A stretch of 64,000 nucleotides of DNA from Tachypleus tridentatus (Eukaryota > Arthropoda > Merostomata > Xiphosura > Limulidae): NCBI RefSeq assembly GCF_004210375.1, contig NC_134830.1:169391874-169455873 (forward strand). Direction: 5' to 3'. Below the pieces are notes generated by a model, which was not told where the DNA came from, searched no databases, and was given only the letters and a program-made list of their open reading frames with translations. A program made the position numbers and the translations under genes. Of the stretch, positions 4,115-60,714 are shown in pieces. The number at the start of each line of letters is the position of its first letter. The first letter of the stretch is position 1.

Positions 4115-4597
4115 TCAAAAGTATTTTATCATTTTATTTAATAAACATAACTGATATACTTCTTTTAACAGACAGAAAAACCAAGGACTCGCCTTACTGT
4201 GCTGTCTTTTTCCGTACGCTCTCCGAGGCCTGTTACTCTGTCGGCGAAATCTCATTGTTGACCGCACTGATACTTTAGTGTTATCTCCATCTGCTCTTTT
4301 GAACTTATATTTTGATACATCTCTACTATAAAATATTGTTGGTATTGCATCTGGTTTTAATTTATTGTATCCTCCTTGATACCCAATTCTAGCCATATCG
4401 TCTACATGTTTTTCATAGCAGTCTCGTTCAAAGTGGTCCGAACACAACCTGCTGTATTTGGTTGGAGTGAAGTTAGCCCGATTAATATTTTGCGTCCAAA
4501 TCTTTCTTCTTACGGGGTCAGACGGGAAATTGAAGAAACTAATCCCCGAACCCCTCTTGCTTCTGTTATGGCACCTATAAGCCACACAGTATACCAT
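4115..4597 (-). CDS. THAP-domain zinc-finger protein
   Basis: The predicted 160-residue protein starts with a THAP DNA-binding domain (residues 1-89). The C2CH zinc ligands are C4, C9, C52 and H55. The conserved Trp is W34, the FNFP block is residues 22-25, and the closing AVPTIF-type motif is AIPTIF at 84-89. The start is the Met just before the first zinc Cys, as is usual for THAP proteins. Residues 90-135 are basic and low in complexity. A consensus donor, ACA|GTAAGG, lies at 4198/4197 after residue 133, so the last 27 codons may be intron and the true protein may continue in an unseen exon. THAP proteins are sequence-specific DNA binders, either host transcription factors or P-element-like transposases. 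I see no transposase domain. The frame is intact. Confidence 0.75.
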   Translation of the reverse strand: MVYCVAYRCHNRSKRGSGISFFNFPSDPVRRKIWTQNINRANFTPTKYSRLCSDHFERDCYEKHVDDMARIGYQGGYNKLKPDAIPTIFYSRDVSKYKFKRADGDNTKVSVRSTMRFRRQSNRPRRAYGKRQHSKASPWFFCLLKEVYQLCLLNKMIKYF

Positions 4598-4749
4598 CTT
4601 ACCGCTAAATTCTCAAAATTAGTAATACGACTACTCACACTAAGATCAATGGCTGTTCTGATAGCTGGCTTATGCGTTTGACTCCCGTGACGTATCCTGC
4701 CGAAGATAATCGAGTATTTTCGGAACATATTCGTATTTGAAGCACAGCT

Positions 4750-8945: not shown

Positions 8946-10026
8946 ATTTATCACACGTTGAATGTAGGATAATAATATTTTTCAGAATTTCCATGCAAAG
9001 GTACACAAAGGGTTATTTGTGCATAGATGTTCATAAGTTTGAACTGACGTAATGTGAATCCAGCAAATCCAGCAATTGTATCGTCGACTAAACCTACATA
9101 ACGCACATTTAGTTTTTTCAACCACGTTAACTCTACATACCCCAACATTAAGTTAACCTGTGAACTGGAAAAAAAAACAACTAACCAAATAGCATTTCTC
9201 AATCTCAAGATCACAAGAACCGATATACAATTCAAAGCAGAAATCCACAGAAAAATCAGTGCTGGAACTCAGCACATGAAACAAAACAAAAACTCGGCAT
9301 ATTAAAAAACTAAATAAACACAGCCACAAAACTATGCTCACCCGATAAAATTAATGATGAAATCAACAAAATAAAACAACACTTCATCAACAACAACAAA
9401 TTTCCTCCAAAAACCGTTGAAAAAATTATACGCACACATCTAGATTAACAACAAACAATAATAAATCCCAAGATGCAACAAACTACAAACCTTACATTGC
9501 TGCATACCATATATTCCTGACATCAGCGGAAAAATAACCAACATTTGTGAAAAAACATATAACAAAAAACAACATTCTAGTAAACACCACATTTATTGAA
9601 AAACCAAGTACAAAACTAAAGTCCGTATTAAGTAAAAACTACTCAATACGCCATCAACATTATTTATAAAATACAATGTAACAACTGCCACGACTTTATA
9701 TTAGAGAAACAAGTAAAAAATGCAAACCAGATTCAAAGATCAACAAAAAAAAACATTTTTGAACACTGCAAATCAAATTAACACAATATAACTATAGAAA
9801 ACATCCAGATACTAAATAAGGAAACAACTATAAACAAACGTAAAATCAAAGAAGCACTACTTATGCAACGACTAATACTAAAGTTAAACCAATATAAAGG
9901 AACACCTTTGTACCTATATTAATTAATAGCCTGACATCTAACTGCAACGCACCCCATAATCCCGCACCCGTTTATACTCTCGTCTCTAAGACGTGCCAGG
10001 CAACGGTCAGCTGTATTGTTTTGTTT

Positions 10027-10295
10027 TGTTTTGAATTTCGCACAAAGCTACTCGAGGGCTATCTGTGCTAGCCGTCCCTAATTTAGCAGTGTAAGACTAT
10101 ATGGAAGGCTGCTAGTCATCGCCACCCACCACCAACTCTTGGACTACTCTTTTACCAACAAATAGTGGAATTGACCGTCACAGTATAACATCCCCACGGT
10201 TGAAAGGGCGAACATGTTTGGTGCGACTGGGATTCAAACCCGCGACCCTCAAATTACGAGTCGAACGCCTTAACACACTTGGCCATGCCAGGCCA
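10027..10295 (-). repeat. SINE-A, full length, with target duplication
   Basis: Full minus-strand copy running from the 3' tail to the tRNA-like head (ggccatgccaggcc). It is flanked by ggtcagctgta (10005-10015) and ggtcagttgta (10296-10306), an 11-bp target duplication with one mismatch. It interrupts the 3' part of the Penelope copy. Confidence 0.85.
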
Positions 10296-10980: not shown

Positions 10981-11789
10981 TCATAACGATCAGTACTATC
11001 TTTGAATTTTATACCAACGAAACTGTTTCAATGCTTTCACAAAAGAAATTACTTAAAGGTGTGTATGCGTTTGGTGTCACATAAAAAAACTAACCCCATA
11101 TTTTTGTATTATATATTTTTGTATTATATATTTATAACACAGCTGCCTGCTGTGTTTTACGTTTTCTAAATAGTCTCCATTATTTTGATGAAGTATTCGC
11201 GTACATGTACATATATAATAGTCAGTGATTGAAATAGTTAATACACTATTGTTGTACAGAGTTGTTTAAATCAGTGATATAATTTAACAACTAATAGCTA
11301 CTCTGCATCTACATGGTACAGAACTTTACTGTAATAAAACATATTTAAAATTAATTTAGGCTAATTTCCTCTGCACTGATACAACAAAAATTATGATTTA
11401 TTGATTTTTCATAGGATGTTTGTGGATTTTGTGTGAACAGCCAAGCAGCTGTTTAAATTATGTATCATGAAAAACTCCTTCCAGATTTTAATTAAATGGC
11501 TTTTTTTTTTTTTCAAATTTTCCCTCCCCAGACCATAACAACAAAAAGAATTTAGTTGCTACACGCGTAATTGTAGCATCCATAGCATATTTTAAACTTC
11601 TTTAGACGTCGGGAACTATTCATAGAACACAATTCAATTTACTACACAAATCAATGTGTGTATTAATAGGTAAAAACATAAACCTAAAAGTAAGTGAGCA
11701 AAATACAAGTTGTTTTTTAAGCATAACTTATTGACTGCAATATTTCTCAAAATGTGCAGGGTTTGATAAAAAAAAAGTTGATATGTTTG

Positions 11790-12056
11790 TTTTTGAATTT
11801 CGCTCAAAGCTACACGAGGGCTAGCTGTCCTAGCCGTCCCTGATTTAGTAGCGTAAGACTAAAGGGAAGGCAGCAAGTCACCACCACCCACCGCTAACTA
11901 TTGGGTTACTCTTTTACCAACGAATAGTGGAATTGACCGTCACATTATAACGTACCCACACCTGAAAGGGCGAGTATGTTTGGTGTGACGGAGATTCGAA
12001 CCCGCGACCCTCGGATTACGAGTCGAGTTACTTAACCACCTGGCCATGCAGGGCCT
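11790..12056 (-). repeat. SINE-A, full length
   Basis: Minus-strand copy from gaatttcgctcaaagc to the head block ctggccatgcagggcct. The B-box appears reversed as ggagattcgaacc. Confidence 0.85.
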
Positions 12057-19900: not shown

Positions 19901-22900
19901 TCTAGGTTCACTTTCATGGTGAGAATTTATGCCTTTTTTTAGTTTCAGTTTTTCAACAGATATTAAGTGTATTGGTGGCTCCACATTTTTAGAAAAATTG
20001 TTACAAACTGATATCCAAGTTGCTCGTTTTACAATATTTGGTAAAGAAGGAAGCTGCAAATGCTTGGTTCATCTAAAAGCTGTATATGTTTTGTCTTTTA
20101 AACAAGGTTCACAGACATAAATTGGAGGATATTCTGATTCACAAATAGAAATATCTAAAAATGTTTATATTTTAGAAATAATTTATTTGTTTTGATTTTT
20201 TTTCCTTTCTCCATTAAAGCAAGATGGTCACCAACTTGGATCAGAGCACGTTAAACGCCTTCCTTACATAGTTATTTTACAGAAGCATCTACATCGTTTT
20301 TCTTGTGAGAGTTAATTTTCCTTGAAATAGTTTGGTCACATCAATCAGAATATTTGTCCCCTCCTCCTTTTTAAGCCCTCATTAAGTACAACATACTATT
20401 AAACAAGTGTCACTTTCAGTAAATATTTTAATCTATTTCTGTGTGTGTTGAACACATGCAAATTTATAACAAAGTGCAAACATATCCCAATTTTGTTTAT
20501 TGCACACTGGTCTCCAGCTATTGAGGATGATTAGTAATTAGTAACTTAAATGATAAAAGTATCTAACATTTTAACTCTAACAGATTGCCATAATGCTTTT
20601 AGATAGATGTTTATAACACACATTAAATTGGCAACAAATCCTGAAAAGTTAGATATCCAGTGTTGTTTGTTTTACACACAAATGTACAAGTGGAAGAACT
20701 AATTCACGTTATGATTATAAAATGTATTCTAAATAAACAATTGTAGGGTATAGAAGCAAAGCGTACGGTAATTATCATTATTAGTGTACCAAATAAATTG
20801 GCTTTTAAGGTATAAACTGTAAGACTGATTTGAAAATCTTTATTGGTTACAAAATATGGTCATACTTATTCAACTCAAAACATGATCTCATCAGAACTGC
20901 ACAAAAATCTAGAAGATAAACTGATCTTACACTTGGCTTCAATTGCACATTTGTGCTTTTATTACATTAGTACTCAGTAATTTCCACTTTATTAATTGTG
21001 TGTACAATGATATAATAAACAGTACTTTCTTCAAACTTTGAACAATATTCCAATTTCAGCATTTCATACAGATGTAGAATGTTTGTTTTTTTGGTAAAAC
21101 CTACTCACATGTATTCACACACTGAAATATCTTTAAGTTGCTTCTACATGTGTAAATTATCTACTGTTTTGTGTGTGTTTTGTTATTGTGATGATTATAT
21201 TTACTTATTCAAATGTTTTTTATTAAGTGAAAGAAGAAACTTGTATGAGCTATACATTGTATCAAGTACATGTTTTCTGTTGATAAAAATGTCATTCTAA
21301 CAATAGTTTTAAAGTATGTAAATCAATTGTTGCTGGAAATAGTTATAGTCTTTTTAATTTTCAAAGGACCTGAAAATAAAGAAATAAAAGATGCTTTGCC
21401 CACCACAAAGAAAGGTTTGAAAAAATTTCGTAAAAGAATGATCCAAGACAAGCAGAAAAATTTGAACAAAGGAATATCAATGGCTAAAGATAAGAAACTG
21501 AAGTGCATAATAGGTAGTAACAGGATTTGTTTTGGTACACTTATTGGGAACTTAATATTGTTTGTAAAGAACATTAATGGATTTGTAAATTAAAAATAAT
21601 ATTTAGTAGAAGAATGTGAAATTTTCTGGACATACTGTGTATTAAAATAACATGAGTGCATCTAGTATTCTCAATCTTTGAGGTACTAACAACACAAGCA
21701 TAGCATTTGGGAATTTTTTAATGAAAATGAACATTTGAACTTTAACTTTGAGACAGTAAAACTGAGTACATTTATTCCTAATTATCATTTTCTTTATAGG
21801 AGATCTTTGAAATAGGAACTTAAAGTTAGTCAAGTGTCAAAGGAGTGCAATCATTATAACTGAGTTTAGGTGGGATCAGGGTTGTTTAAATAGTTTGTTT
21901 TAAAATTATATCTTTATTTACAGATATGTACTTGTTTAAAGGAAGTAGTACAGAGGATCACCAAGTAAATCTGGTGTATTTAAAAAAGACCTAGAAACTA
22001 TAACAAACTAACTAAACTACTGTGGCAGGGGTTCAGTTTAGAGAGAGAGAAATCAGAAGAGTTCTCTCTCCAACTGGGGTGTTCAGGAACTTTGTAGTTC
22101 CTCTTCGTCCCCTTACATGAGAAATGTTTTAAAATATCCGTGGAATTTTTACTTTATTTTTAACATTTCAAAAAATGGAGTTGTGTATTTGTGAGTGAGA
22201 GGAAGGACGGGAGAACTGGACGAAAGCAGCGAAAGTGAAGTGAGCCAGACCTTGGCTCGAGGATGGAGTACCCTGGCGGCTGGCGAATTGATTTTTTAAA
22301 ATTTACTGTAATTGATTAGATACCCTTGACTGGATAAATGGCCCTTTTCAGAATGAGGCTGGGACCTACAGGTCCGATGCCAGAGATTTTGCTGTGGGGG
22401 GGGAAACGGGAGTACCCCGAGAAAACCCACTTTCACGGCCTGGGCGCCGAATAATCTACCCAGACCGTGCCCGGAAGTAGCTGGGAAGAAAGAGAAAAAA
22501 CAAACTGATGAACAATGTTGGTGGTATACGTGGAAACTGTTAGCTGCAGTCTTGTAGATCGGGTGGTAACTTCATCATGAACTTGTTTCCACACTTGAAG
22601 CCCATTGGTGCAAGTGAGAAACGTGGTCTTGGTGGTGGAACTACTGGCTGTTCTTCGGTGAGTTGTTCTTCGCTGGTCTGTGATGCTTTATTTCTTCTCG
22701 AGATTTTGGTTTGAGTTTTCTGCGTGGAGGTAGATTGTTTTTCAGTTTGTGCTGTCGCCCCGATGGTTATCTTCGTAATGGTTTGAGTCTGGCTGGTTGT
22801 TGAATTCTGTGGAACTAGGATTGAAATCTGGCAGGAACTGTCCTTTTTCTTTCTTGAACTACTGGAACTTGGCGTGTTGCTAACAATGGGTTTTGTCGTC

Positions 22901-25900
22901 TTCCGAGTCGGGTTGTCTGAATCCGTCTTCATGTTTCTTCTAATACGGTCTGGACTCGGCGGTATTTTGATATTTTCATGTTGGAAGATTTCCGTTGGTT
23001 GTTTGCGATATCTGGGTGCTTGGTTTGAACCATTCTTGAGTGATCGTCGATGTGGGCGTTCGGCTCTAAAATGAAATATATGATAATAACAGCCATCTTG
23101 TAAAATACAGTCGGCACTGTACTTCGATGTTGTCACTATCTTCATGAAGTGTGTGGGATGATTACTGTTCTTAGAATAAATTCGATGAACTGCGTATACC
23201 TTGGCTTGTATTTGGGGTTCTATGGTTTGTCTAATTTCTTCTGGTTGAATTGATGGGTCGACGCCCCTGAGGAATACAGAATAAAGATTCACTGGACTTT
23301 TGGTAGGGGAACAACTTACTTTAAATTCAGTGTTCCATAGCTGGCACAGATAGGTTTGGTCTGCAGTAGTGGCTGGTTGGATGAGGATTCCTCCCCGGCG
23401 TAAAATACAGGTCCTGGACGGTTTGATGGTTGCCCCAGGCTTGGCTCGGGCGATCAACGTTGCGACTTGGTACGGCGTGAGGTTCAGCGGTAAGCCGTCG
23501 ACGATTACAGGCGGCACTAACGGCCTGACTGGCGAGGATGAACGTTTTGTTCTGAATAGCATATTGGCACGTCGTTTAATATACTAACCTTTATTAGGGG
23601 GTAAGTATGAAACTATAACACTTCTGGATAGTTCCTTATAAAGGGTCATTTTTACTCTTGAAGAATTACAGGCAACTATTTAATAGCATTTGTTTCTGGG
23701 TTGTTCTGAAGTCTGAGTTACTAGGGATACATAACACTCGTAACTTTCATTGCTGATATTGACATAAATCATGCATAAGACATGCCCGCCACTGCAGGTA
23801 TATGCAATAAATTCAGAAGAATCCACAAATTTTTAATTTTCACTGTGCTAAAAATATTTCAGATGTTTTGCACATTTGCATGATGGGTAACCACCAGCAG
23901 AAAACTAGTAAATAATAATAATTAATGTTTCCACTACTAATTGTGTCTTTATTTACAGATACCATTAAATTCCCATTTGATCTTACTAATCCAAAGGAGA
24001 ACATTCTACAATGTATTTATCATCCTCTTATTTGTAATGAGACTCTGCAAACCTTTTAATGTGTGAAATCTTACTATTTTTTCTAACTTTGGTGGGGATG
24101 GACATAAAGAAACCTTTTATATATTTGTAAAAACGGCTTGTTTGGGTTGAGAAAATATTTTACATAGAAGAGCGAACAACTTTTCAACCTTCTTCGATCA
24201 TCGTCAGGTTCACAAAGAAAGAGGTAACTGACTGAAAACTGACCAGAAGCTGACCACATGTTTGGAAGTGGTTGTGTAACTGAGTGTCGGAATATAGAGG
24301 GCGGTGTTAGATGTTTGAATATATAATTTTATTTATTTTATTATAGGTATAAAGGCATTCCTTTGTATTGGTTTATTTTGGGTTTAAGTTGTTGTATAAG
24401 TTAGGCTTCTTTAATTTTGCATTTGTTTATGTTTGTTTCTTTATTTAGTATTTGAGTGTTTTCTATGGTTATGTTGTGTTTATTTGACTTGCAGTGTTCG
24501 AAAACGTGTGAAGGTGAATTTTTATGTTCTTTGAATCTGGTTTCCATTTTTCTACTTGTTTCTCCAATATAGAAGTCGTGGCAGTTATCACATTGTATTT
24601 TATAAATAATGTTGGTGTGGTGTTTGTCAGTGTAGTTTTTTACGTAGAAAAGGTCTCAGTTTTGTGCCTGGTTTTGAATAAATTTGGTATTAACTGGAAT
24701 GTCATATTTTGTTACTAGTTTTTGCCAAGTGTTGGTTATTTGTCTGCTGATGTCGGGAATATATGGTATGCAGCAGTATATGGTTTCGTGATTTTTTGAT
24801 TCGTGAGATATATTTACTTTTGTTGGTTGATTTTGCTTTCTGTCTAGGTGTGTGTGTATAATGTTTTCTTCAGTTTGTGGAGGAAACTTGTTGATGAAGT
24901 GTTTTATTTTGTTTAATTCATCGTTAATTTTATCTGGTGAACATAGTTCTATGGTTGTGTTTATTTGGTTTCTTAGAATGTTGAGTTTTTGTTTTGTTTC
25001 ATGTGCTGAGTCCCAAGGAATGTATAGTCCAGTATGGGTGATTTTTGTCGTGTTTTTTCTGTTGTTTGCATCTTAGTTTTCATAGTTTTTTGTTCTGGCA
25101 GATCTTTTTGTCTCTGTCGTTCTAAGTATTGATTTGGTTTATGTTTCATTGTCCATGTTGAACACAAAATACAAAGAACTACATGACTTACAAAAACAAA
25201 AAAATGAACATAGACCATCAACTGGCATGCTGCATTATACCAGAGATTTACGGATCTAGTCAGGAGACTTGTGATACTTTCTACAAAAACAAGAAAACAA
25301 CCAAAACCAACCAACAGATAGAAGACAACTTAGATAATTTTATTGACATCCAACAGCCAAACTTCCCAGGTAAAATTAAAAATTTATATTTTCCAGAAAC
25401 GCCTAAAAACAACATCTTAGACAATTTTTTCAAAGACTTTTCTCACAAAACCATCAACATAATTTCACAAAACAGAAAGCTAAAAAACAATCTTACAAAA
25501 AGAGACATTAATTCTATTAAAATCCTAAAACAAGACAAAAACATAAAAATTCTAAAAGCAGATAAAGGTAACGCTATAGTCATAATGAATACAAATGAAT
25601 ACATCCAAAAAATGAAGAACATCCTATCAGACACGAACAAATTTAAACCAATACACACAAATCCAACAAAGACGCACGAGACGCAACTGAACAAATTACT
25701 ACTAAAAATGAAAAAAGCCAACACAATTTCACAAACACTTTATTCTTACCTACGTAAAACCGACTCACGCACACCACAAATATACGGTATCCCCAAACCT
25801 CATAAACCAGATTGTACATTACGACCAATAATGTCCACATATGAATCGTTTAATAGCAATCTTGGTAAATACATAGCATGGGCATTCTCTAAATATGTAA

Positions 25901-28683
25901 CATCAACCAGCTCATTCATCAAAGACTCTTTTAATTTCAAGTCTAATCTAAATCAACTTAATCATAAAGCCTTAATGGCCAGTTTCGATGTTATATCCCT
26001 CTTTACAGAAGTTCCAATCACTGAAGCCTGCAAGATAGCCTTAGAACTCTATATCCGAGAGCCTAACCCAACTATAGACATTCCCAGCAACCCTCGTAGA
26101 ATTCACCACGATAAAGACAAACTTCATGTTCAACAGTCACAACTATATACAAACAAATGGCCTAAGCATGGGCAACCCAGTATCACCAGTTCTAGCCAAT
26201 ATTTTTATGACACAAGTTGAAACACAAGCAATTAACACAGCATTACATCCACCACTATACTGGTACAGATGCGTATGTAAATGACACGGTTGCGGGATTC
26301 AAATCTACAGAACACGTACTTAATTTTTTTCAATCACATTAACTCTGTACATCCCAACATTAACTTCACATGTGAACAGGAAGAAAGCAATCAAATATCA
26401 TTTCTTAACCTCAAAATTACAAGAACCGACACACATTTTAAAACAGAAATCCACCAAAAAATCACCTATACTGGACTACACATTCCTTGGGACTCAGCAC
26501 ATGAAACAAAACAAAAACTCAACTTACTAAGAAACCAAATAAACTATGCTCACCAGATAAAATTAACAATGAATTAGACAAAATAAAACAATACTTCATC
26601 AACATCAATAAGTTTCCTCCACAAACTGAAGAAAACATTATACACACACACCTAGACAGAAAGCAAAATCAACCAACAAAAGTAAATATATCCCACGAAT
26701 CAAAAAATCACGAAACCATATACTGCTGCATACCATATATTCCCGACATCAGCAGACAAATAACCAACATTTGGCAAAATCTAATAACAAAATATGACAT
26801 TCCAGTTAATACCAAATTTATTCAAAAACCAGGCACAAAACTGAGGTCTATACTATGTAAAAACTACACTGACAAACACCACACCAACAGTATTTATAAA
26901 ATACAATGTGATAACTGCCACGACTTCTATGTTGGAGGAACAAGTAGAAAAATGGAAACCAGATTCAAAGAACATAAAAATTCACCTTCACACGTTTTCG
27001 AACACTGCAAGTCAAATAAACACAACATAACTCAAATACTAAATGAAGAAACAAACATAAACAAACGCAAAATTAAAGAAGCCTAACTTATACAAGAACT
27101 TAAACCCAAAATAAATCAATATAAAGGAATGCCTTTATATCTATATTAATATAATAAAATAAATAAAATTATATATTCAAACATCTAAAACTGCCCTTTA
27201 CATTCTGACACTCAGTTACACAACCCCTTCCAAACATGTGGTCAGCTTTCGGTCAGTTACTTCTTTCTTTGTGAACCTGACGATGACTGAAAAAGGTTGA
27301 AACATTGTTTGCTTTTCTATGTAAAATATTTTCTCAACCCAAACGAGTCGTTTTTGCAAATATATTTTTCTACAAGTGGGTTTTTGGGACATCACTTAAA
27401 GAAACCTTTTGAAAACAACTATGCCATTGTCAAGTGTGTTCTGCACTTTGAGGTCAAGGGTGAATTGATCAAATAATTTTATTAATAATTATTGCAGAGA
27501 AATTAAGAGAAAATCAACAAGGAGATATGGTACAGGAAAATATTAAACTGCTGAAAAGATTTGGAGAAATGAAGACAAAAGCTGATACAACGAAGCAGGT
27601 GAGTTTAAGCCTTTCTTTTTAGTTTTCACTACTTCTCTGGACATAGTTAAAGCTCTTTTTGCACACAACTATGTAGTAAGAAAATAATTAGCTTTTAAAA
27701 TTAGAAATTGTAATTATTGCAGTTTCCCAAGCAAATAATATTTAGAACATTTAACTTTAAAAACAAGTGGAATTTAATTCTTTATATTCTTAGGGGAATT
27801 AATAGACTGAACTTGGTTACAATATTTAAAATAAATTCATTCAACAAGAACCATTCAAATTTCTTAACTATAAAATTTTGTAGTGAATTAGCCCCTAGTG
27901 GCACAGGGGACAAGTCCTGAAAGCTTCTAATGCTACAAACCAGGTTTCTATATTCATAGTGGGCACAGCACAGATGACTGTGGTTAAGCAGAAAGTAACA
28001 AGATAGTGAATTAGTTGTTTTTGTATGGGTTGTGCATTTTGCTAATTTTATTTTTAAAAAAATTGTAGCTAAAGAAAAATTGGACTAAATGTTATAATTC
28101 TGAGTTGTACAGTGGTGAGTAGTTGAGATGGTTACTACAGTAAGTGAAATTTAATTTCTGCATTAATTGGATAAAAATAAATTTCCAAAATTTCTGTTTA
28201 GATATAAGAACATTTTATAATGAACATTTGAAGGTAAGCATAACACAATCTAATTTGCTGTGAGCTAACTATTAGTATTACATTTTTTGTTAATTATTGT
28301 GTTTGAGCAAGTGATTTTGTTACATTTGTTTCATGCGGGTGATAAATGTTTCTCTCCAGTTACAATTTTAAGCTCTTTTGATTTGATGAGAGCAGGAGAA
28401 AGTTAATATACAATCAGTAATATATACATTTATCTTTTGATAGAAATCGATAAGGTCAGAGGGATCGTATATTTTTCACTGTTTACTTCTTTAAACATGT
28501 AGAAGATTTTCTTCAGTAATTAAGGTAATTGTTTTCATTACTTAGATCTTAGGAAGAATGTCTAAAAATCAACCTCCAACCCAGAAGGAAGAACAGTCTA
28601 CTGTGTTTACTGACAAGGATTTTGAGTTATTTGAAAGAGAATATATGTTAATAAAACCCAAGAAGGAGTCTTTTTTTGATTGA
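13930..28683 (+). CDS. RPS19BP1: RPS19BP1/AROS homologue (four-exon gene, whole span)
   Basis: Exons 13930-13993, 21367-21513, 27498-27598 and 28546-28683 join in frame (phases 1, 1, 0; 450 nt) into 149 residues, close to the human protein of about 136. The N-terminus MSATLVRKTLDLDL matches the family's MSAxLxRxxLxL start. The C-terminus carries TVFTDKDFELFEREY, matching the family's TVFTxxDFxxFxxEY ending. The middle is Lys-rich and helical, with TTKQILGRM at the place of the family's SQQILRQ. The family binds ribosomal protein S19, acts in small-subunit assembly, and in vertebrates activates the deacetylase SIRT1 in the nucleus and nucleolus. All donors are GT and all acceptors AG. Introns 1 and 2 (7.4 and 6.0 kb) are full of transposons. 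I assign this from remembered family ends, not from a search. Confidence 0.85.
14731..14866 (+). repeat. SINE-B, 5' half of a B+A composite
   Basis: tRNA-like head tcccccactgagacagcag, B-box-like GGTTCGATTCCCC, the body tgaacacagcagatagcc and gtggctttgtgata, then an A-rich tract. It is immediately followed by SINE-A. The pair shares one target duplication (14717-14729 and 15138-15150). Confidence 0.75.
14867..15137 (+). repeat. SINE-A, 3' half of a B+A composite
   Basis: Full plus-strand copy from ggtccagcatggctaggtgg to the tail gaaattcaaaaccaaac. Its right flank tcaagctaattta (15138-15150) is identical to the sequence just left of SINE-B. Confidence 0.85.
15140..16290. other. Intron 1 of RPS19BP1, unique AT-rich DNA
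   Basis: I see no exon, SINE or transposon in this part of the intron. Confidence 0.4.
16296..17584 (-). mobile_element. Full-length but dead mariner transposon
   Basis: Inverted ends are present: left tcaagtcatctcttaagtaa, and right, read reversed, tcaagtcatcctataagtaa, next to TA. The length of about 1.29 kb is normal for mariner. On the minus strand the transposase is broken into several frames: an N-terminal block from about 17400 with stops, LRSGRPVEFND (helix-turn-helix linker), TRDEKWVFY (first catalytic Asp), LHQDNARPHTA (second Asp), and YSPDLAPSDHHLF in a shifted frame (third Asp). All three catalytic Asp codons survive, but stops and at least two frameshifts prevent translation. 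Confidence 0.85.
17590..18695. other. Intron 1 of RPS19BP1, no feature
   Basis: AT-rich DNA without recognisable coding or repeat structure, apart from short GT runs near 18390. Confidence 0.4.
18700..18905. repeat. Intron-internal duplication, copy 1
   Basis: About 200 bp matches 21573-21770 in the same orientation with interspersed changes. Shared blocks include agaagaatgtg, gacatactgt, aacatgagtg and gaattnttaatgaaa. Confidence 0.6.
18990..20345 (-). pseudogene. Decayed unidentified coding block, split by a MITE
   Basis: On the minus strand, long open blocks with protein-like composition follow one another with occasional stops and frame changes: a Cys-containing block near 20150 (YVCEPCLKDKTY), LPSLPNIVKRATWISVCNN, FSFRKTLFNNGSYFTPNT, QLSFSTKNKNNLQSSQKK, and after the MITE VQLEKNINGLAVLNDCILP and ESKYGFIFQVLCIAVGDKI. 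Removing the MITE and one TA joins ...KSMIIQY to DNPKVQLEK in one frame. No family is recognised; it may be an old transposon gene or a processed pseudogene. It lies antisense in intron 1 of RPS19BP1. Confidence 0.45.
19308..19677. mobile_element. MITE-like DNA transposon with TA ends
   Basis: The ends are inverted: left TAccgtgtttctccgaaaataaga, right ggtcttattattggagaaacacggTA. Internal blocks agggcttattttcgggggg and agggcttattttaaggg are arranged symmetrically around an AT-rich centre of attaaactaac-type repeats. The 370-bp element has no ORF. TA flanks suggest a Tc1/mariner-type source. It interrupts the decayed ORF on the opposite strand. Confidence 0.75.
21367..21513 (+). CDS. RPS19BP1: RPS19BP1 exon 2
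   Basis: Acceptor ttttcaaag|GACC and donor ATAG|GTAGTA. The 147 nt encode a very Lys-rich segment (PTTKKGLKKFRKRMIQDKQ) that fits the basic central region of the family. Entry and exit phases are both 1. Confidence 0.8.
21573..21770. repeat. Intron-internal duplication, copy 2
   Basis: Partner of 18700-18905. It starts about 60 bp after exon 2 of RPS19BP1 and carries the same ordered blocks. Confidence 0.6.
22006..23608 (-). mobile_element. ORF1-only (half-LINE-like) retroposon
   Basis: A 1603-bp insertion is flanked by perfect 12-bp repeats gaaactataaca (21994-22005 and 23609-23620). On the minus strand it has a leader of about 46 nt, one intact 340-residue ORF1-like gene, and a 3' region of about 530 bp including gggttttctcggggtactcc and a tail of tagttt-type repeats. 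It encodes no endonuclease or reverse transcriptase. It is clearly more GC-rich than the intron around it. It lies antisense in intron 2 of RPS19BP1. Confidence 0.75.
22540..23562 (-). CDS. LINE ORF1-like protein with PRE_C2HC-type fold, no zinc knuckles
   Basis: 340 residues, intact. Residues about 18-80 begin VIVDGLPLNLTPYQVATLI. Residues about 95-165 (FLRGVDPSIQPEEIRQTIEP, then VYAVHRIY, KIVTTSKYSADC and HIFHFRAERPHRR) match the plan of the PRE_C2HC domain of jockey/X-element ORF1 proteins (RGLPxxxxPEEI...V..vhRi...v......i..l......v..e.y). The CCHC knuckles that normally follow are absent. Instead there is a Ser/Thr/Gln/Lys-rich tail (residues 185-310) and a Pro-rich C-terminus. ORF1 proteins of this type bind RNA and nucleic acid in the retroelement particle. 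No ORF2 follows. The family name is inferred from the pattern. Confidence 0.65.
   Translation of the reverse strand: MLFRTKRSSSPVRPLVPPVIVDGLPLNLTPYQVATLIARAKPGATIKPSRTCILRRGGILIQPATTADQTYLCQLWNTEFKVSCSPTKSPVNLYSVFLRGVDPSIQPEEIRQTIEPQIQAKVYAVHRIYSKNSNHPTHFMKIVTTSKYSADCILQDGCYYHIFHFRAERPHRRSLKNGSNQAPRYRKQPTEIFQHENIKIPPSPDRIRRNMKTDSDNPTRKTTKPIVSNTPSSSSSRKKKDSSCQISILVPQNSTTSQTQTITKITIGATAQTEKQSTSTQKTQTKISRRNKASQTSEEQLTEEQPVVPPPRPRFSLAPMGFKCGNKFMMKLPPDLQDCS
24119..25075 (-). mobile_element. 5'-truncated inverted Penelope arm
   Basis: Read on the minus strand this is the 3' end of a Penelope-like ORF: the TGLYIPWDSAHETKQK block, CCIPYIPDIS, the GIY-YIG signature (YKIQCDNCHDFYIG), then ...PKINQYKGMPLYL and the terminal unit. 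It diverges from the plus arm by scattered changes including frameshifts. Confidence 0.75.
24172..24210 (-). ncRNA. Hammerhead-like core, left Penelope end
   Basis: On the minus strand: AACCTGACGA (CTGACGA at 24201-24207), a short stem with GAAGAA loop, GGTT, then GAAAAGTTGTTCG. The order CTGANGA / stem II / GAAA / short stem III / GTT is that of minimal type I hammerheads reported in Penelope-like elements. GAAAA in place of GAAAC may weaken stem III. Confidence 0.5.
25183..27148 (+). pseudogene. Penelope-like reverse transcriptase with GIY-YIG endonuclease (broken)
   Basis: The first open block, 25183-26220 (345 aa), carries LKADKGNAIVIM, YGIPKPHK...LRPIMS and RT motif A SFDVISLFTEVPI. After a frame change near 26090, motif B reads TNGLSMGNPVSPVLANIF in another frame at 26155-26210. 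Motif C reads YVND instead of YVDD (26274-26285), so the first catalytic Asp is lost. A further shift in the T-run near 26325 leads to the block 26281-26577, and a GIY-YIG nuclease (SIYKIQCDNCHDFYVGG, RFKEHK) lies at about 26890-26980. This order is diagnostic of Penelope-like retroelements, whose enzyme copies RNA into DNA at chromosomal nicks. It is not functional here. Confidence 0.85.
27277..27312 (+). ncRNA. Hammerhead-like core, right Penelope end
   Basis: CTGACGA at 27277-27283, then a weak stem II around TGACTGAAAAAGGTT, GAAAC at 27299-27303, then ATTGTTTGC, which gives a two-base-pair stem III and a GTT cleavage triplet. The unit precedes the 3' terminus of the element. Confidence 0.5.
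27498..27598 (+). CDS. RPS19BP1: RPS19BP1 exon 3
   Basis: Acceptor attattgcag|AGAAA and donor AAGCAG|GTGAGT. It encodes KLRENQQ...ENIKLLKRFGEMKT, predicted helix, entering in phase 1 and leaving in phase 0. It begins only about 90 bp after the end of the Penelope insertion. Confidence 0.85.
27889..27990 (+). repeat. SINE-C, diverged
   Basis: gcccctagtggcacagggg head, aaaccaggtttctatattcatagtgggcacagcacagatg body. Lies in intron 3 of RPS19BP1. Confidence 0.55.
28546..28683 (+). CDS. RPS19BP1: RPS19BP1 exon 4 (terminal)
   Basis: Acceptor cattacttag|ATCTTAGG. It encodes ILGRMSKNQPPTQK, then STVFTDKDFELFEREY, the family's most conserved stretch, and ends at TGA 28681-28683. The tail after the motif (LIKPKKESFFD) is about ten residues longer than in the human protein. 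Confidence 0.85.
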   Translation: MLGRMSKNQPPTQKEEQSTVFTDKDFELFEREYMLIKPKKESFFD

Positions 28684-36300: not shown

Positions 36301-39300
36301 TCGAATAATACACAAATAACTCACGGGTGTCATCACAACCGGTGGTTTTGTAGTATCCCTACTTTTACATACGTGACACATAGAACAACAGTAAGTTATA
36401 TTATTATATTAAATTTCTGGAGAACACACCCTCTATATTGAGCTGCCTTTGACAGCACAGAAGCTATCTGCAGCATTTCCTTATGCTTTCAATTACTTTT
36501 AAAATCCACATGTGTAGTCAAGCAGCACCACTTTGCAACTCCTTCCTTCACCCCTGTAATTGATAAGTCAAATTAATGCTAATCACAAGCGACCAGTTCA
36601 CCATTCATGTTGAATTAAGAAATCATTCAAACTTAAATATTAATAATTCCTCTTTTTCAAGTTAAATAATATTTAAAGAAGGAACATAACTGAAACCGCT
36701 CTTTCTTACCTAAAGAGCTATGGTTATTTTTTATCAATTATCTCTCCCGCCAAAAATTGGCAGAGGTTACGTTTTCGCCCCTGTGTGTGTATTTGTCAGC
36801 AAGATTTCTCGAAACCAGCTAAACGGATTTGGACGAGTGTTGGTATACATTTGGACCAACTTAGAAGCGATCCATTTTTGGAGGGTTAAATCAAGAAAAA
36901 AAATTCCTATCCGTTAATATAAGTACCAATTTTGAGACAATTTTTGCTCTGTAACTCAGTCAAAAATGACCAGATTTTGATGAAACTTAATGGACATGTA
37001 GAGCGTATTATTTGTTATTGTACTGCCCAAAATGGTTCGTGTCTGTTAATAACGACAGACATACGGACACATTTTCGTATTTTTTGAGAGCCAAATATGA
37101 ACAACACTTGGCGATGGAGGTATGCGCGTTACCGAGTACTCTCTAGTTTTTGTATCTTTTGGGGGAAAATGTTGAAAACAAAAGAAATAAACATTTTAAT
37201 CACACACACGCACACAGTTATGCCTCATTATCTATTTGTTTTAACTTTCTGAATTAATATGAAATCAAAGCATAAGAAGGATAGACTTACATCTGATAAA
37301 TAAATAAGTTTGTTCCTCGTAAACGATAAACATTTTACCAGTTAATAACTTAACAAATATGCTTTGAAATTATCTCAGATAGTGAGATAATACTGAGATA
37401 ATAGTTCAATCACACAACAGCAGTCTGTTTATCACAATACTGAGATAATAACTCAATCATACTATAGTAGTCTGTTTATCACAATACTGAGATAATAACT
37501 AAATCACACCATAGCAATCTGTTTATCACAATACTGAGATAATAACTCAATCATACCATAGCAGTCTGTTTATTACAATACTGAGATAATAGCACAATCA
37601 CACAATAGCAGCCTGTTTATCTCAATACAAAGAAAATAGCTCAATCATATCAAAGCAGTCTGTTTATCTCAATACAAAGAAAATAGCTCAATCATATCAA
37701 AGCAGTCTGTTTATCACAATACTGAGATAATAGCACAATCACACAATAGCAGTCTGTTTATCACAATACTGAGATCATAACTCAATCATATCAGAGCAGT
37801 CTGTTTCTCACAATACTGAGATAATAGCACAATCACACAATAGCAGTCTGTTTATCACAATACTGAGATCATAACTCAATCATATAAGAGCAGTCTGTTT
37901 CTCACAATACTGAGATAATAGCTCAATCTAACCATAGCAGTCTGTTTATCACAATACTGAGATAATAGCTCAATCATAACATAGCAGTCTGTTTATTACA
38001 ATACTGAGTTAATAGCACAATCACACAATGGCAGTCTGTTTATCACAATACTGAGATCATAACTCAATCATATCAGAGCAGTCTGTTTATCACAATACTG
38101 AGATAATAGCTCAATGTAACCATAGCAGTCTGTTTATCACAATACTGAGATCATAACTCAATCATATCAGAGCAGTCGGTTTATCACAATTCTGTGATAA
38201 TAGCTCAATCATACCATATAGTCTGTTTATCACAATACTGGTTTATTTTGCTGCAGTTCATTACTTGTGGAGCTCACAAATAAAATCTGGAATAGTTTTA
38301 TGTTTATGCCTTTAAGAACGCTAAATGTAAAAAAACTAACCCTCAAAAAATATAATAAAAAAATTATACGTCAGGTGTGTAGTGTTGAGTAGTAATTAAT
38401 GGATAATTGCAATATTGGTTGTATTTGTGTTTACATTTTATGTATGTGATTAATAGCGTCACAAAGTTACAAAAAGTTTGGTGTATATATGTATATTTTA
38501 GATTGTGTGTTAACAGTGGTAGTGGGTCACAACGATAATTCTACGGTTAAGAGCGATCTGCAAGTTAGAAGAGTATAAAGATGCATATTTATGAAAATCT
38601 AGTTTTAAGTGCATTTAGTCAACTACTATCGTCTGCTGCCATCTATAGGGAAATATTTGAATTGATAGATTAGCAGTGTGTGTTATTATCCGACTGATGC
38701 CAACATCTATAGTTTTGTACCTGGTTTTAAGGTTCACTTTACTTTCAGAAGTTTTACCTTATTCGACAGTTTTGGTATGTTTATAGTTGCATTTACGCGT
38801 AAATTACCTCGCCTGTTCACTTGGTGGAGCACATGTCGTATCATACCGTCACTCAACAGAATTCCGAGACTCTCTGACATAGATTTCAACTCGCTGGCGT
38901 TCACTCTACCATCATGGTTTTTATCCATAAGTACAAAAGCTGCCTTCAGTTCTATTACAAAAAGAAAAAACAACAAGTACTGAAATTCAAAATAAGTTTT
39001 AATACATTCCTCAATAAAGGGAAAAATAAGAAGAAATAAATTTAAAAAAACTGAAGCCTAACGTGAAAAGTTTGCAAAAAAAAAAAGGTTATAAAATTCT
39101 CATTTTAGTCTTAATAACCAAGTTAAACCATAGATTATGCAAATCCACTTACTAAAACACTTCGAATTACGAATAGATTATTAACGTTTGCTTCGAATTT
39201 CGCGCAAAGCTACACGAGGGCTATCTGCGCTAGCCGTTCCTAATTTTGTAGTGCAAGGCTAGAGGGAAGGTAGCTAGTCATTACCACCCACCGCCAACTC

Positions 39301-42300: not shown

Positions 42301-45300
42301 GTACGAACGAAGTGCAGGACAAGTGAACTCTCGACTTTCAAATTGGTCATTCATATTAATATTGCGATAGACTCTAATAAAAATATTGAAATTACGAGGT
42401 ACGCTTTTCCTTACTCTGTTTGATTTTCTCGTGCTCGCGTGATGACGATAAGTTATTTGAAGTCTCAGTTGCGTCAGGTGTCTCATTAAAACAAAGATGT
42501 CCAATATAACAAGTTTTTGTAACTCTTCTATAAGATATACAACTTCCAGAGACTTGTACCGTTATGTCGCCGCAGAATTACCATCTCGGAATATACTTGA
42601 GAAGAAGGTTGAAATAAGCGTGCTTGAAATAATGTCTAACTTCTTAATTCGAAAACATGTTGGACAAGTTACACCTGAAACGAAGATAGTTTGTCAAGAG
42701 CGGGTTGCAGGAAGCCACTGGTTAACATCAGAAAGAGGCAGACAGTTGGAGATCATTGGATACGTTACGATGAAAGAGGAAATCTCAAGTCTAGTCTTAA
42801 TTGGAAATACTGAAAGAAGGAGAGACCGTGGAAAACAGGCCATGATGTATGTCAAGAGTTTACCCAAATGGATGAATGTATCGACTTTGGAAATATTCTG
42901 TGCCTCAAGGAGAAGAGATCTGTATAAGTCTATGGTTACCAACATCTTGGATATGGCGCATAAAGAGAAAATAGGTCAACATCTACTTAAAATCAAGAAA
43001 TGTTATACAAAGACTTCAACAAATTCATAAAAACCACTTCCTAAAGTATTTTTCTATAGTTGGTTGCTATCACAGTTCCAGGGATTTATTTCATGCTAAT
43101 AGCTAATTTTCTTCAGTTAAATGGTGAATACACGCCATACAAACTTTCTTTTAATTTAAGGCCCGACATGGCCAGGTGAGTTAAGGCGTTCGACTTGTAA
43201 TCTGCAGGTTCGAATCTCTGTCGCACCAAACATGCTTGCCCTTTCAACCGTGGGGGCGTTATAATGTTACGGTCAATCCCACTATTCGTTGGTAAAAGAG
43301 TAGCCCAAGAGTTGGCGGTGGGTGGTGATGACTAGCTGCTTTCCCTCTAGTCTTACACTGCTAAATTAGGGGCAGATAGCACAGATAGCCCTCGTGTAGC
43401 TTTGCGCGAAATTCAAAAACAAGTTACGAAATTATTTGCTAAATTTTACAACACCGTTGTTCTTAGTGGTATATGATCATTGGAGGCTGGAAAGCGAACT
43501 TCGTGAAATATATTCTATTCATTATTCATTGTGAAATGTTATTAATAATGTTTAATGATAACATTCACTTAGTTTATTATCTAAGTATAATTAGTTGTTT
43601 TTTTCTGCTCATCACGGGTGTCGAAACCCAATTTTAGCGTTGTAAGCTTGTAGATTTACCGCTGAGCCACTTGAGAGCAGTGGACTTGAGAACCATTATC
43701 TACCCATATTTTGAAATGTACTTTATAATGTCGTGTCAGTTTCATCTCTTTGGTTAGCAAACGGTAAAGATGAATCTGATACAAATATCCGCCGCTATGT
43801 AGGTTATATATCACCAGGTGTTTTCGGTGTTGTTTCTCAGTGATAAATTTTACAGTTTTTATTTTGTAATTATACACTAGTTAAATTTTTTCTGTTCTAG
43901 TAAACAATTAAATTATTTATTATTCTTAACTTTGTTCAACACAAACTGTAGCATATGATGAGACATTTTTATAAATGTAAATAAATTAACAATCTATGTC
44001 AGCAGAATATTGTCTCACGTGTGGAAAACTGCGCAGCATTTCACACAAAGGACGACATCTACATGATGATGACAACATGAATGGTCAAAACATTGTGATA
44101 AAGTTAAACGAAATTAGAAATAAATAATCCACTCAAAAACTGTACTTGTGAACTTGTATTTAAAACGACAGTTTATTAATCGGGAGGGCTAGTATATAAC
44201 AATTGAGCTTAAACTGGTAATTCAACGGACATCTAGGCCTATAACACAATAGTTTGACCAATACTACACATAAACTCGACCTTTTTGAAATCTTGTAGTT
44301 TCACTTAAATAAAAACCAATGTGTGTCACATTACATTTGATTTTTTTCGAAACAGGAGTTATAAAAGCTAACATGCATTTATTTAGAAAGAATAGTTCGA
44401 ACACTGCCCATTTTTATTTTAATGACAGGGTACAAGAGGGCCAAGGGCATAAAATTGAAAATGAAAGTAAAAATATTGATTCTATTTTTGATTAAAATCA
44501 TTTCTGAATTTAAACTGGTAATTCAACGGACAGCTAGGCTGATACAACATGACAGTTTGACCAGTACTGCATATTTGTCTACCGGGACATTGTTTTATTT
44601 GTTTTCGGAATTTCGCGCAAAGCTACACGAGAGCTATCTGCGCTAGCCGCTCCTAATTTAGCAGTGTAATACTAGAGGGAAGGCAGCTAGTCATCACAAC
44701 CCACTGCCAACTCTTGGGCTACTCTTTTACCAACGAATAGTGGGATTGACCGTAACATTATAACGCTCCCCCGACAAAAAGGGCGAGCATGTTTGATGCG
44801 ACGAGGGTTCGAACCCGTGACCCTTGGATTACGAATCGAACGCCTTAACCCACCTGGCCATGCCGGGCCTTACAGGGACATTTAGAACACACTTGACGTG
44901 ACCTTACCTAACACGACTTGAACTGAACTTGCTTCAAACATTAAAGCCAAGAACGTGGTCTGACACATTTTAACCTATACAATGCTGTTGAAAGATTTCT
45001 ACATAGAGAAGAAACAGCGCTTGAATTTTTACGTGTAGTATGTAACGTGCTAGTTTACCATTCAAAGTCTTTTCATGTTTTTTTATATGATGAGTATTAA
45101 TGAATAATAAAATAAAATATATGCTATTAGTGTGATGCAATTATCCACAATCTTTTCATATTTGTTCAGCTGCAATCTAAATATCCTGGTAGATCGCACG
45201 CTATAGTGGCACCGCGAATTGTTTAGTACGTAACGAACTTCTCGTAGCGCTAAGTAATTCATTACAATACGATTTCTCTATTCACAAAACTGAAATAACT

Positions 45301-47155: not shown

Positions 47156-47428
47156 GGCCCGGCATGCCCAAGCGTGTTAAGCGTGCGACTCGTAATCTGA
47201 GGGTCGCGGGTTCGCATCCCCGTCGCGCCAAACATGCTCGCCCTTTCAGCCGTGGGGGCGTTATAATGTGACGGTCAATCCCACTATTCGTTGGTAAAAG
47301 AGTAGCCCAAGAGTTGGCGGTGGGTGGTGATGACTAGCTGCTTTCCCTCTAGTCTTACACTGCTAAATTAGGGACGGATAGCGCAGATAGCCCACGTGTA
47401 GCTTTGTGCGAAATTTCAAAAACAAACA
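47156..47428 (+). repeat. SINE-A, full length, part of inverted unit
   Basis: Head ggcccggcatgcccaagcgt, B-box GGTTCGCATCCC, tail gtgcgaaatttcaaaaacaa. Followed directly by the inverted arm 47431-47551. Confidence 0.9.
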
Positions 47429-47430
47429 AA

Positions 47431-49364: not shown

Positions 49365-50175
49365 TATATACCGTACAGCAAGACAGTAGTTTGTACCACT
49401 GCGTGTGTGTATATATATACATATATACCGCACAACAAAACAGTGGTTTGTACCACTGTATATGGCCCGGCTTGGCCAAGCGTGTTAAGGCGTGCGACTC
49501 GTAATCTGAGTGTCGCGGGTTCGCATCCCCTTCGCGCCAAACATGCTCGCCCTTTCAGCCGTGGAGGCGTTATAAGTGATGGTCAACCCCACTATTCGTT
49601 GGTAAAAGAGTTGGCTGCGGGTGGTGATGATTAGCTGCTTTCCCTTTAGCCTTACACTGTTAAATTAGGGACGGCTAGCACAGATAGCCCTCGAGTAGCT
49701 TTGTGCGAAATTCAAAAAACAAACAAACAAACCACTGTATATATACTGCACAACAAAGTAATGGTGTGTACAACTGTTTATATACCGTACAACAACAGAG
49801 GTTTGTACCACTGTATACATACCGTACAACAAGACAGTGATCTGTACCACTGTATACATACCGTACAACAAGACAGTGATTTGTACCACTGTATACATAC
49901 CGTACAACAAGACAGTGAGTTGTACCACTGTATACATACCGTACAACAAGACAGTGATCTGTACCTCTGTATACATACCGTACAACAAGACAGTGAGTTG
50001 TACCACTGCATACATACCGTACAACAAGACAGTGATCTGTACCTCTGTATACATACCGTACAACAAGACAGTGATCTGTACCTCTGTATACATACCGTAC
50101 AACAAGACAGTGATCTGTACCTCTGTATACATACCGTACAACAAGACAGTGATTTGTACTACTGTACACATAACT
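49365..50175. repeat. 39-bp minisatellite, about 12 copies, split by a SINE
   Basis: Unit: ataccgtacaacaagacagt, then gatttgtaccactgtatac. Copies lie before (49365-49463) and after (49731-50175) a SINE-A. The main block has near-perfect 39-bp spacing (49823, 49862, 49901 and so on). 39 is 13 codons, so five of six frames stay open and give 13-residue repeats such as YRGTDHCLVVRYV. These are not genes. Confidence 0.9.
49464..49730 (+). repeat. SINE-A inserted in minisatellite, perfect 12-bp target duplication
   Basis: accactgtatat lies at 49452-49463 and 49731-49742. Full-length copy from ggcccggcttggccaagcgt to an (caaa)n tail. Confidence 0.9.
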
Positions 50176-55519: not shown

Positions 55520-55848
55520 TGATTGATGTCAGGAGGCACGCCCATCTTCATAGATTGATGTCAGGAGGCACGCCCATCTTCATAGATTTGATGTCAGGAG
55601 ACACGCCCATCTTCATAGATTGATGTCAGGAGGTACGCCCATCTTCATAGATTTGATGTCAGGAGGTACGCCCATCTTCATAGATTTGATGTCAGGAGAC
55701 ACGCCCATCTTCATAGATTTGATGTCAGGAGACACGCCCATCTTCATAGATTGTCGTCAGGAGGCACGCCCATCTTCATAGATTGTCGTCAGGAGGCACG
55801 CCCATCTTCATAGATTGATGTCAGGATGCACGCCCATCTTCATAGACA
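55520..55848. repeat. 32/33-bp minisatellite, about ten copies
   Basis: Unit gatgtcaggaggcacgccca followed by tcttcatagatt; 32 and 33 bp variants alternate, and a gtcgtcagg variant occurs twice. Confidence 0.9.
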
Positions 55849-56794: not shown

Positions 56795-57510
56795 ATAAAT
56801 TAAAATGTCATTTCCTGTAAACATTTTCTCCAATCTTTTGTATAGTTAAATGTCATTTCTTTATAAGCAGTTTCTGCAGCCTTTTGTATTGTTAAAATCT
56901 CATTTCTTTATGAACAGTTTCTCCAATCTTTTGTATTGTTAAATGTCATTTCTTTATAAGCAGTTTCTGCAGCCTTTTGTATTGTTAAAATCTCATTTCT
57001 TTATGAACAGTTTCTCCAATCTTTTGTATTGTTAAATGTCATTTCTTTATAAGCAGTTTCTGCAGCCTTTTGTATTGTTAAAATCTCATTTCTTTATGAA
57101 CAGTTTCTCCAATCTTTTGTATTGTTAAAAAGTCATTTTCATAGCAAGCACTTTCTCCAGTCTTTTGTATTGTTAAATGTCATTTCTTTTTAAGCAATTT
57201 CTGCAGTCTTTTGTATTATTAAAATGTCATTTTTATTGCAAGCACTTTCTCCAGTTTTTTTGTATTATTAAAGTATTATAATTTTTTATGAACAGTTTTA
57301 CCAGTCTTTTGTATTGTTAAGTTTCATTTCTTTATAAGCAGTTTCTGAAACTATTTGTATTGTTAAAATATCATTTCTTTATGAACAGTTTCTCCAGTCT
57401 TTTTATTGTTAAAATGTAATTTCTCTGTAAGTAACTTCTCCAGTTATGCGTGTGTGTTGTTAAAATGTTATGTAAGCAGTTTATCCATACTCGTGTACTG
57501 TTAAAATATT
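56795..57510. repeat. 46-bp minisatellite with 93-bp higher-order unit
   Basis: Two versions alternate: attgttaaatgtcatttctt, tataagcagtttctgcagcc, ttttgt (46 bp), and attgttaaaatctcatttct, ttatgaacagtttctccaat, cttttgt (47 bp). The pair repeats nearly perfectly three times at about 56850-57125, then units drift. About 15 units in all. Confidence 0.9.
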
Positions 57511-58809: not shown

Positions 58810-59175
58810 TTTGTTTGTTTGGAATTAAGTACAAAGCTATTGAAACTCGGTTTATAGCGGTGTTTGTTTGTTTGTATTGGAATTTCGCACAAAGCTACTC
58901 GAGGGCTATCTGTGCTAGCCGTCCCTAATTTAGCAGTGTAAGACTAGAGGGAAGGCAACTAGTCATCACCACCCACCGCCAACTCTTGGGCTACTCTTTT
59001 ACCAACGAATAGTGGGATTGACCGTCACATTATAGTGCCCCCACCGCTGGGAGGGCGAGCATGTTTGGCGCGATGCGGATGCGAACCCGCGACCCTCAGA
59101 TTACGAGTCGCACGCCTTAACGCGCTTGGCCATGTCGGGCCGGCGGTGTGAGTTCATATACATTGGGGAGCGGGG
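58810..59175 (-). repeat. SINE-C interrupted by SINE-A
   Basis: ggaattaagtacaaagctat and aactcggtttatagcggtg on the left, then gcggtgtgagttcatataca on the right, form one SINE-C split by the SINE-A at 58861-59143. The repeated gcggtgt at the edges is the target duplication. Confidence 0.65.
58861..59143 (-). repeat. SINE-A nested in SINE-C
   Basis: Full minus copy, aatttcgcacaaagctactc to ggccatgtcgggcc. Confidence 0.9.
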
Positions 59176-60258: not shown

Positions 60259-60439
60259 TACACTCTTTTATGATTTATGTTATGTATAACATGTATAAAG
60301 CTGGCATTTTTTCGCATTTTATTTGTATAACACAATTAATTGGAGAGACTTAATATTTATTGTTTCCGATAGCGAAATAAATGAAGGCTTCCAGATAATT
60401 ACGGTGTATATTAAGAATGGTGAAAGTATTCGTTGTTGT

Positions 60440-60714
60440 TGTTGTTTTTTTTGAATTGCGCCCAAAGCTACACGAGGACTATCTGCGCTAGCCGTCCCTA
60501 ATTTAACAGTGTAAGACAAGAGGGAAGGCAGCTAGTCATCACCACCCACCGCCAACTCTCGGGCTACTCTTTTACCAACGAATAGTGAAATTTACCGTCA
60601 CGTTATAATGCCCCCACGGCTGAAAAGTCGAGCATGTTTGATGCGACCGGGATTCAAACCCGCGATCCTCAGATTACGAGTCGAACGCCTTAACCCACTT
60701 AATCATGCTGGGCC
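60440..60714 (-). repeat. SINE-A with target duplication
   Basis: tattcgttgtt on the left (about 60428-60438) and tgttcgttgtt on the right (about 60719-60729) flank a full minus copy. Confidence 0.85.

Follow-up and report, generated by a model that had tools for sequence, protein, structure and literature searches.

The 64,000-nucleotide stretch of DNA analysed here (the window; Tachypleus tridentatus, contig NC_134830.1, positions 169,391,874 to 169,455,873) contains on its minus strand, at 22006-23608, a 1,603-bp retroposon with an open reading frame 1 (ORF1) and without ORF2. This insertion is very probably a copy of a non-autonomous, ORF1-only family, here termed half-LINE, that would be mobilised in trans by a co-resident long interspersed nuclear element (LINE). 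An earlier reading of the letters alone (the sequence-only reading) had likened its plan to that of mammalian HAL1, and this likeness is supported by many copies, separate insertions, selection on ORF1 and the presence of a complete LINE that ends in the same 3' sequence. On the best reading of these comparisons, the half-LINE would be a long-lived element with a working ORF1 protein (ORF1p).

Structure of the insertion and its family

The insertion is flanked by an exact 12-bp target-site duplication, GAAACTATAACA, located at 21994-22005 on the element's 3' side and at 23609-23620 on its 5' side, as the sequence-only reading had described. The G+C content is 0.45 within the element versus 0.29 and 0.32 in the 2-kb flanks. 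ORF1 (22540-23562, minus strand) encodes 340 amino acids and is intact, again as proposed; its 347-codon stop-free run was equalled by none of 2,000 Markov shuffles. The leader of 46 nt requires revision. Its last 11 nt (23563-23573, minus strand, GACGTGCCAAT) align with other copies and belong to the family, whereas the first 35 nt (23574-23608, minus strand) are a private filler that is absent from the 39 other copies compared and takes the place of ~30 nt of family leader. Each of these copies has its best match starting at element nucleotide 36 or beyond, and short fillers of other sequence are present at the 5' ends of several of them. The first 9 nt of the filler equal what we take to be the start of U1 small nuclear RNA; the remainder differs, and the agreement was attributed to chance. 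On the plus strand, the 5' edge of the element (23598-23608, GGGGTAAGTAT) resembles a splice donor and could affect a host transcript. Terminal inverted repeats were considered and rejected, with 6 of 20 positions matching.

Inspection of the 3' region (22006-22539, minus strand, 534 nt) revealed no poly(A), and no ORF2 pieces were seen by eye in its six frames, consistent with the ORF2-less 3' region described earlier. It includes two minus-strand blocks in common with the partner LINE described below, block 1 at 22357-22436 (86% identity) and a terminal block at 22006-22114 (96%) with a GTTTAGTTAGTT tail. Folding of the stretch 22006-22095 (z -2.9 for the whole) predicts two minus-strand hairpins, hairpin 1 at 22042-22071 and the terminal hairpin 2 at 22010-22038. 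An Rfam search of the window returned nothing. A short motif rich in G+C within the 3' region, presumably common in animal repeats, had no match in viral and prokaryote contigs, nor in papers.

No second copy of the element was found within the 64-kb window. The assembly (2,167,478,450 bases, 205 contigs) was searched with the element as query, and 40 of 2,793 candidates were scored. Among the 43 matches, 40 are long and correspond to the window copy and 39 others, 89-97% identical. These 39 young copies were fetched and read, together with three old loci (L063-L065). The complete family leader reads roughly GGAGAGACCTGAGCTAGTCACCGAGCAAGTCAGACGTGCCAATATG; a 28-nt segment of it occurs at 188 places with at most two mismatches, and the reversed-pattern control gave 0. 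The expectation of many copies with the same two ends was thus borne out. In 40 of the 42 other copies read (39 young and three old), ORF1 leads to the 3' end without ORF2; for 38 of the 39 young copies the alignment is unbroken between ORF1 and the 3' end. The exception, L045, carries ~0.5 kb inserted in the 3' region, which splits its match into C12:81227828-81227978 and 81228468-81229877.

Target duplications of 8-15 nt were located by script, with no chance control, in 30 of the 39 copies, three of them only 8 nt long. The duplication of L020 falls in tail repeats, and six rows duplicate one insertion upstream of histone H2B genes (see below). With L020 dropped and the H2B insertion counted once, ~24 separate insertions with duplications remain, so that the differing target duplications anticipated for a mobile family are present.

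Fold and selection of ORF1

The absence of CCHC zinc knuckles noted in the sequence-only reading was confirmed by a pattern search that was negative in all six frames of the element. The PRE_C2HC-type block that it had recognised was not recovered; neither the whole ORF1 protein nor two parts of it matched Pfam at E ≤ 10. Searches with ORF1 of Pfam, PHROGs and PDB sequences (phmmer) produced nothing meaningful, and no relatives were seen in protein scans of viral and prokaryote contigs. Because of its likeness to the ORF1 of the partner LINE and its predicted fold, ORF1 is assigned to the RNA recognition motif (RRM) fold; the protein resembles the second RRM (RRM2) of the partner and lacks CCHC knuckles. 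The RRM2-like module comprises residues ~92-172 (23047-23289, minus strand). It aligns with the partner's RRM2 by hhalign with an E value of 1.5e-5, a probability of 79% and 28% identity, and by blastp with an E value of 4e-5; the amino acid identity over RRM2 is 26-28%. In the partner LINE the second RRM directly precedes the CCHC knuckles.

A structure model computed from a three-row alignment has a mean pLDDT of 48.7, with ten-residue blocks of RRM2 at 66-79 and a predicted β-α-β-β-α order. Foldseek returned three matches at E ≤ 0.001, all RRM entries, the best being the tandem-RRM protein HuR (4ed5, 4.6e-4), whose fit is loose (rmsd 9.5). Of the 50 Foldseek rows shown, most refer to an RRM or to a protein that we take to contain one. 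A first RRM-like module (RRM1; residues ~17-93, 23284-23514, minus strand, bounds approximate) is weakly supported by inspection by eye and by the loose Foldseek match of the entire segment to HuR. A single-sequence model of the whole ORF1 (pLDDT 35) was useless.

The 340-residue frame is maintained with unchanged ends in 11 of the 39 copies, and five further copies (L014, L023, L024, L034 and L045), as read from the copy list, are uninterrupted with changed ends. The pooled ratio of nonsynonymous to synonymous polymorphism (pN/pS) is 0.36 over 66 pairs. Two groups of copies were also compared, A (27 copies) and B (7 copies), after six duplicates of the H2B-site insertion (L015, L016, L019, L021, L022 and L028) had been dropped, with near-fixed defined as a majority of ≥80% in A and 60% in B. 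Single-step near-fixed changes between A and B number 7 nonsynonymous (N) to 17 synonymous (S), plus two multi-step codons, versus 190N:98S for private, single-copy changes (Fisher p 6e-4).

Older relatives extend the comparison. A divergent ORF1 in L049 brought up 25 dispersed places (72-80% nucleotide identity), three of which are L063-L065, with amino acid identity of 49-60%. L064 and L065 align directly with the 5' start of the family, and L063 does so through L064. L063 and L064 continue to a 3' end, and the matching 3' end of L065 lies just upstream, in a neighbouring unit. None of the three matched the reverse transcriptase and endonuclease pieces of the LINE, a comparison that a remote reverse transcriptase could escape. 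Between these loci and the window ORF the dN/dS of the RRM region is 0.11-0.17 at dS 1.2-1.4, values that are approximate, near saturation and include neutral changes carried by the old copies. The contrast of near-fixed and private changes, the pN/pS of 0.36 and the RRM dN/dS together indicate purifying selection on the frame. Judged from these substitution patterns, purifying selection appears to have kept ORF1 in a lineage that was already devoid of ORF2, provided that there is no hidden parent with an ORF2.

Likely partner LINE, shared 3' end and insertion sites

The likely partner is a ~4.9-kb LINE with an RRM-CCHC ORF1 and an ORF2 with reverse transcriptase. At L048:4509-7844, where it adjoins a half-LINE copy, it matches RVT_1 (E 3e-22) and, below the cut-off, the endonuclease family PF14529 (E 7.5e-5). 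A ~4.95-kb copy at L062 includes the 5' end, ORF1 and ORF2, with TGTAATAGTCA duplications on both sides and interrupted frames. A 3.2-kb LINE query produced 45 matches, with 40 scored of 2,992 candidates; the whole query is spanned at 27 places including itself, 22 of the others at 98% and 4 at 95%. A 28-nt segment from the 5' end of the LINE was located at 168 places (control 0), such that the half-LINE and its likely partner are similar in number, 188 versus 168 5' ends. In both elements AGACGTG begins ~32-33 nt from the 5' end, a motif that we take to be a putative downstream promoter element of jockey-type LINEs. Since the first LINE copy (on C3) begins at ORF2, the LINE was at one point considered to be ORF2-only and the half-LINE to be the half that it lacks; this was rejected, as ORF1 lies upstream in C12, L061 and L062.

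The 3' untranslated regions (UTRs) of the LINE and the window copy have two collinear blocks in common, 81 columns with 86% identity and 110 columns with 96% identity. A full, ORF2-bearing LINE with the same 3' end, as the sequence-only reading had envisaged, is therefore present in the genome. Across other half-LINE copies the terminal block is 93-99% identical to that of the LINE. The 3'-end tree and distances were computed with 10 of 33 group A copies, L045 being left unaligned. In the terminal 100 nt, half-LINE A differs from LINE A by 4.6% and from the old half-LINEs by 19.8%; in the preceding 60 nt, half-LINE A and LINE A differ by 39%. A GTTTA-type tail is present in most half-LINE A copies and in five LINE A copies (C3, C13, C8, L061 and L062), and a GTTTGC-type tail in six of seven half-LINE B copies and in the single LINE B copy (C12).

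These observations suggest a route by which the half-LINE might move. Its RNA would encode a single protein, ORF1p, which has the RRM fold, a charged tail rich in Ser and Thr, and no zinc knuckles, and which may act in cis by coating the RNA that encodes it. The co-resident LINE would supply its ORF2 protein, which would recognise the shared terminal ~110 nt, with its predicted hairpins and GTTTA-type tail, and copy the RNA at a nicked site through target-primed reverse transcription; a duplication of 9-15 bp would result. Mobilisation in trans by the partner LINE is inferred here from the shared 3' sequence.

Seven copies (L015, L016, L019, L020, L021, L022 and L028) go back to one insertion, located upstream of the start codons of histone H2B genes, that multiplied with the gene array; the 125-residue translation that follows the insertion is one that we take to be H2B. 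L062 provides a natural empty site, with uninterrupted H2B upstream sequence and one GCCCAAGTTTA compared to two in the filled copies. The location of an insertion beside histone genes, multiplied with their array, gives the system a host angle.

Half-LINEs and LINEs also form head-to-tail arrays. Among 36 half-LINE and 64 LINE 5' ends on contigs C8, C11, C13 and C14, taken from the first 100 of the 188 and of the 168 places, 18 same-strand neighbours lie one unit apart: 10 LINE-LINE, three half-half, three half-LINE and two LINE-half. On C13 the same duplication sequence occurs before a half-LINE, between it and a LINE, and after the LINE; at L062, TGTAATAGTCA occurs between two LINEs and after the second one. 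The mixed arrays would thus reflect repeated insertion at one site, and duplication of arrays as such may be an alternative source. A dense cluster of LINEs and half-LINEs is located at C14:8.2-9.55 Mb, where LINE 5' ends form two head-to-tail runs of five each, at ~4.95-kb spacing.

At L055:9600-9790 (contig C8) a fragment of large-subunit ribosomal RNA (rRNA) is fused to a half-LINE 5' end (RF02543, E 7.7e-17), and by manual reading a LINE is inserted in the fragment. The fragment appeared only in an E-value search of 191 bases; at gathering scores Rfam listed nothing in ten whole loci including L055. Such a 5' fusion fits copying from RNA with template jumping, as expected.

Alternative origins and relation to known elements

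Several observations weigh against this interpretation. Exact 12-mer pairs 500-3,000 bp apart are not rare in the window (293 k-mer pairs outside tandem arrays), and the 12-bp repeat is thus weak evidence by itself; it counts because the 3' boundary of the window copy coincides with the family's own end. Variants found in two or more copies (43N:32S) do not differ from private ones (p 0.18), and the hhalign comparison of RRM1 with the RRM1 of the LINE was not significant. With regard to the partner, LINE B is represented by a single copy (C12), and the tail was among the criteria by which half-LINE group B was chosen, so the tail matching is suggestive only; in group A, L026 and L034 have GTTTGC-like tails and L032 and L042 have the GTTTTG type. 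The 3'-end tree does not separate groups A and B cleanly, the translated LINE copies all have interrupted frames, and many of the 98% LINE copies are clustered, such that their likeness may stem from duplication and not from new insertion.

The strongest competing explanation, which we consider distinctly unlikely, is that ORF1-only elements were repeatedly thrown off by an undetected LINE with the same ORF1 type and an ORF2, in which case the selection would be that of the parent. An older ORF2-bearing parent with the half-LINE's ORF1 type may exist, since the reading covered 39 of the 2,793 candidates plus three old loci, and mammalian HAL1s arose several times (PMC5753468). This explanation is opposed by the one-piece alignment of 38 of the 39 young copies, the additional ~0.5 kb of L045 being an insertion, and by a LINE reverse transcriptase search of the collected loci, which matched only L048 and L004 (the partner LINE) and L051 (another reverse transcriptase). 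It is likewise opposed by the three old loci, within the reach of the reverse transcriptase and endonuclease comparison given above.

The view that the window copy is a lone LINE derivative, deprived of ORF2 by an internal deletion, was named in the sequence-only reading as the finding that would overturn it; it agrees with the collinearity of the 3' UTR blocks with those of the partner LINE. As a lone event it is excluded for the family by the many copies with the same plan, and we regard it as very improbable overall: the same ORF1-to-3' plan recurs in the 39 other copies, the half-LINE has no nucleotide match in the LINE ORF1 at E ≤ 1e-3 (only the 3' blocks match), the amino acid identity over RRM2 is 26-28%, and among the old relatives at dS 1.2-1.4 two of the three loci keep the plan. 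A single deletion long ago, from which the whole family descends, is possible. Capture or domestication of a host RRM gene that spread as a processed pseudogene would account for the RRM fold and for Foldseek matches to host RRM proteins, and is scarcely credible given the lack of poly(A), a 3' end that is that of a LINE, an RRM2 related to LINE ORF1, the lack of meaningful phmmer matches to PDB sequences, and multiple copies with a common 5' leader.

The preferred trans-mobilised half-LINE can be extended to a durable two-element system, a tentative reading that we hold to be on the doubtful side. The long-lived half-LINE would have evolved beside the LINE for dS >1 while tracking its 3' end and tail, its ORF1p may aid the LINE, and both would insert head-to-tail at the same target sites.

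Among known elements, HeT-A of Drosophila forms head-to-tail arrays, as the half-LINE and LINE do, and its Gag protein has CCHC knuckles. Like the half-LINE, it is an arthropod non-LTR (long terminal repeat) element without its own reverse transcriptase. The half-LINE insertions are internal with target duplications, so telomere-end addition was not encountered, whereas HeT-A is telomeric in habit and is thought to use the reverse transcriptase of TART or TAHRE (PMC5537684). HAL1 (half-L1) of mammals is likewise a non-autonomous LINE derivative encoding only ORF1p (PMC5753468). HAL1 belongs to L1, with a Type II ORF1 composed of a coiled coil, an RRM and a C-terminal domain (PMC4120745); on the comparisons made, the half-LINE ORF1 looks like the RRM portion of a LINE ORF1 that carries CCHC knuckles. 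The half-LINE differs from HAL1 in an ORF1 remote from that of its partner, in the lack of poly(A) and in its old lineage. HAL1 and HeT-A work in a manner like that proposed for the half-LINE. In Type I ORF1 of Jockey-superfamily LINEs the RRM lies immediately upstream of the CCHC, as PMC4120745 describes. The partner LINE has this order; the half-LINE has an RRM without CCHC or ORF2, and because no CCHC follows its RRM, its ORF1 was not filed as Type I.

In the accessible parts of the open-access literature on ORF1-only or half-LINE elements, mammalian HAL1 is described, and neither an arthropod case nor a description of the window's family was found. The element represents a new half-LINE family with a likely partner, on a plan that is known in kind. 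New with respect to known half-LINEs are the CCHC-less RRM ORF1, the age together with selection, the shared 3' end and the mixed arrays. Why an element that does not move itself keeps an RNA-binding protein is a general question about half-LINEs. With ORF1 apparently kept, a likely partner identified and the shared 3' end narrowed to ~110 nt, it becomes testable whether ORF1p prefers its own RNA in cis and whether CCHC knuckles are needed.

Elsewhere in the window, a Penelope-like element was recognised by eye at 24119-27365. It has two ORFs, of which the second matches GIY-YIG weakly (E 0.023, below the cut-off); both lie between 0.93-kb inverted repeats that are 89% identical (24119-25063 and 27365-26442), and a related copy of 75% identity is located at 9090-9928. 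A THAP domain ORF (PF05485, E 6.4e-20) occupies 4118-4612 on the minus strand. Minisatellite arrays are found at 37389-38240, 49731-50172, 55521-55846 and 56800-57431, and a 39-bp array yields long repetitive ORFs on both strands. An abundant dispersed repeat of ~275 bp, mostly 75-92% identical and by eye similar to a short interspersed nuclear element, occurs at 10015-10295, 11778-12055, 43160-43422, 44594-44869, 47156-47430, 58863-59141, 60436-60714 and other positions.

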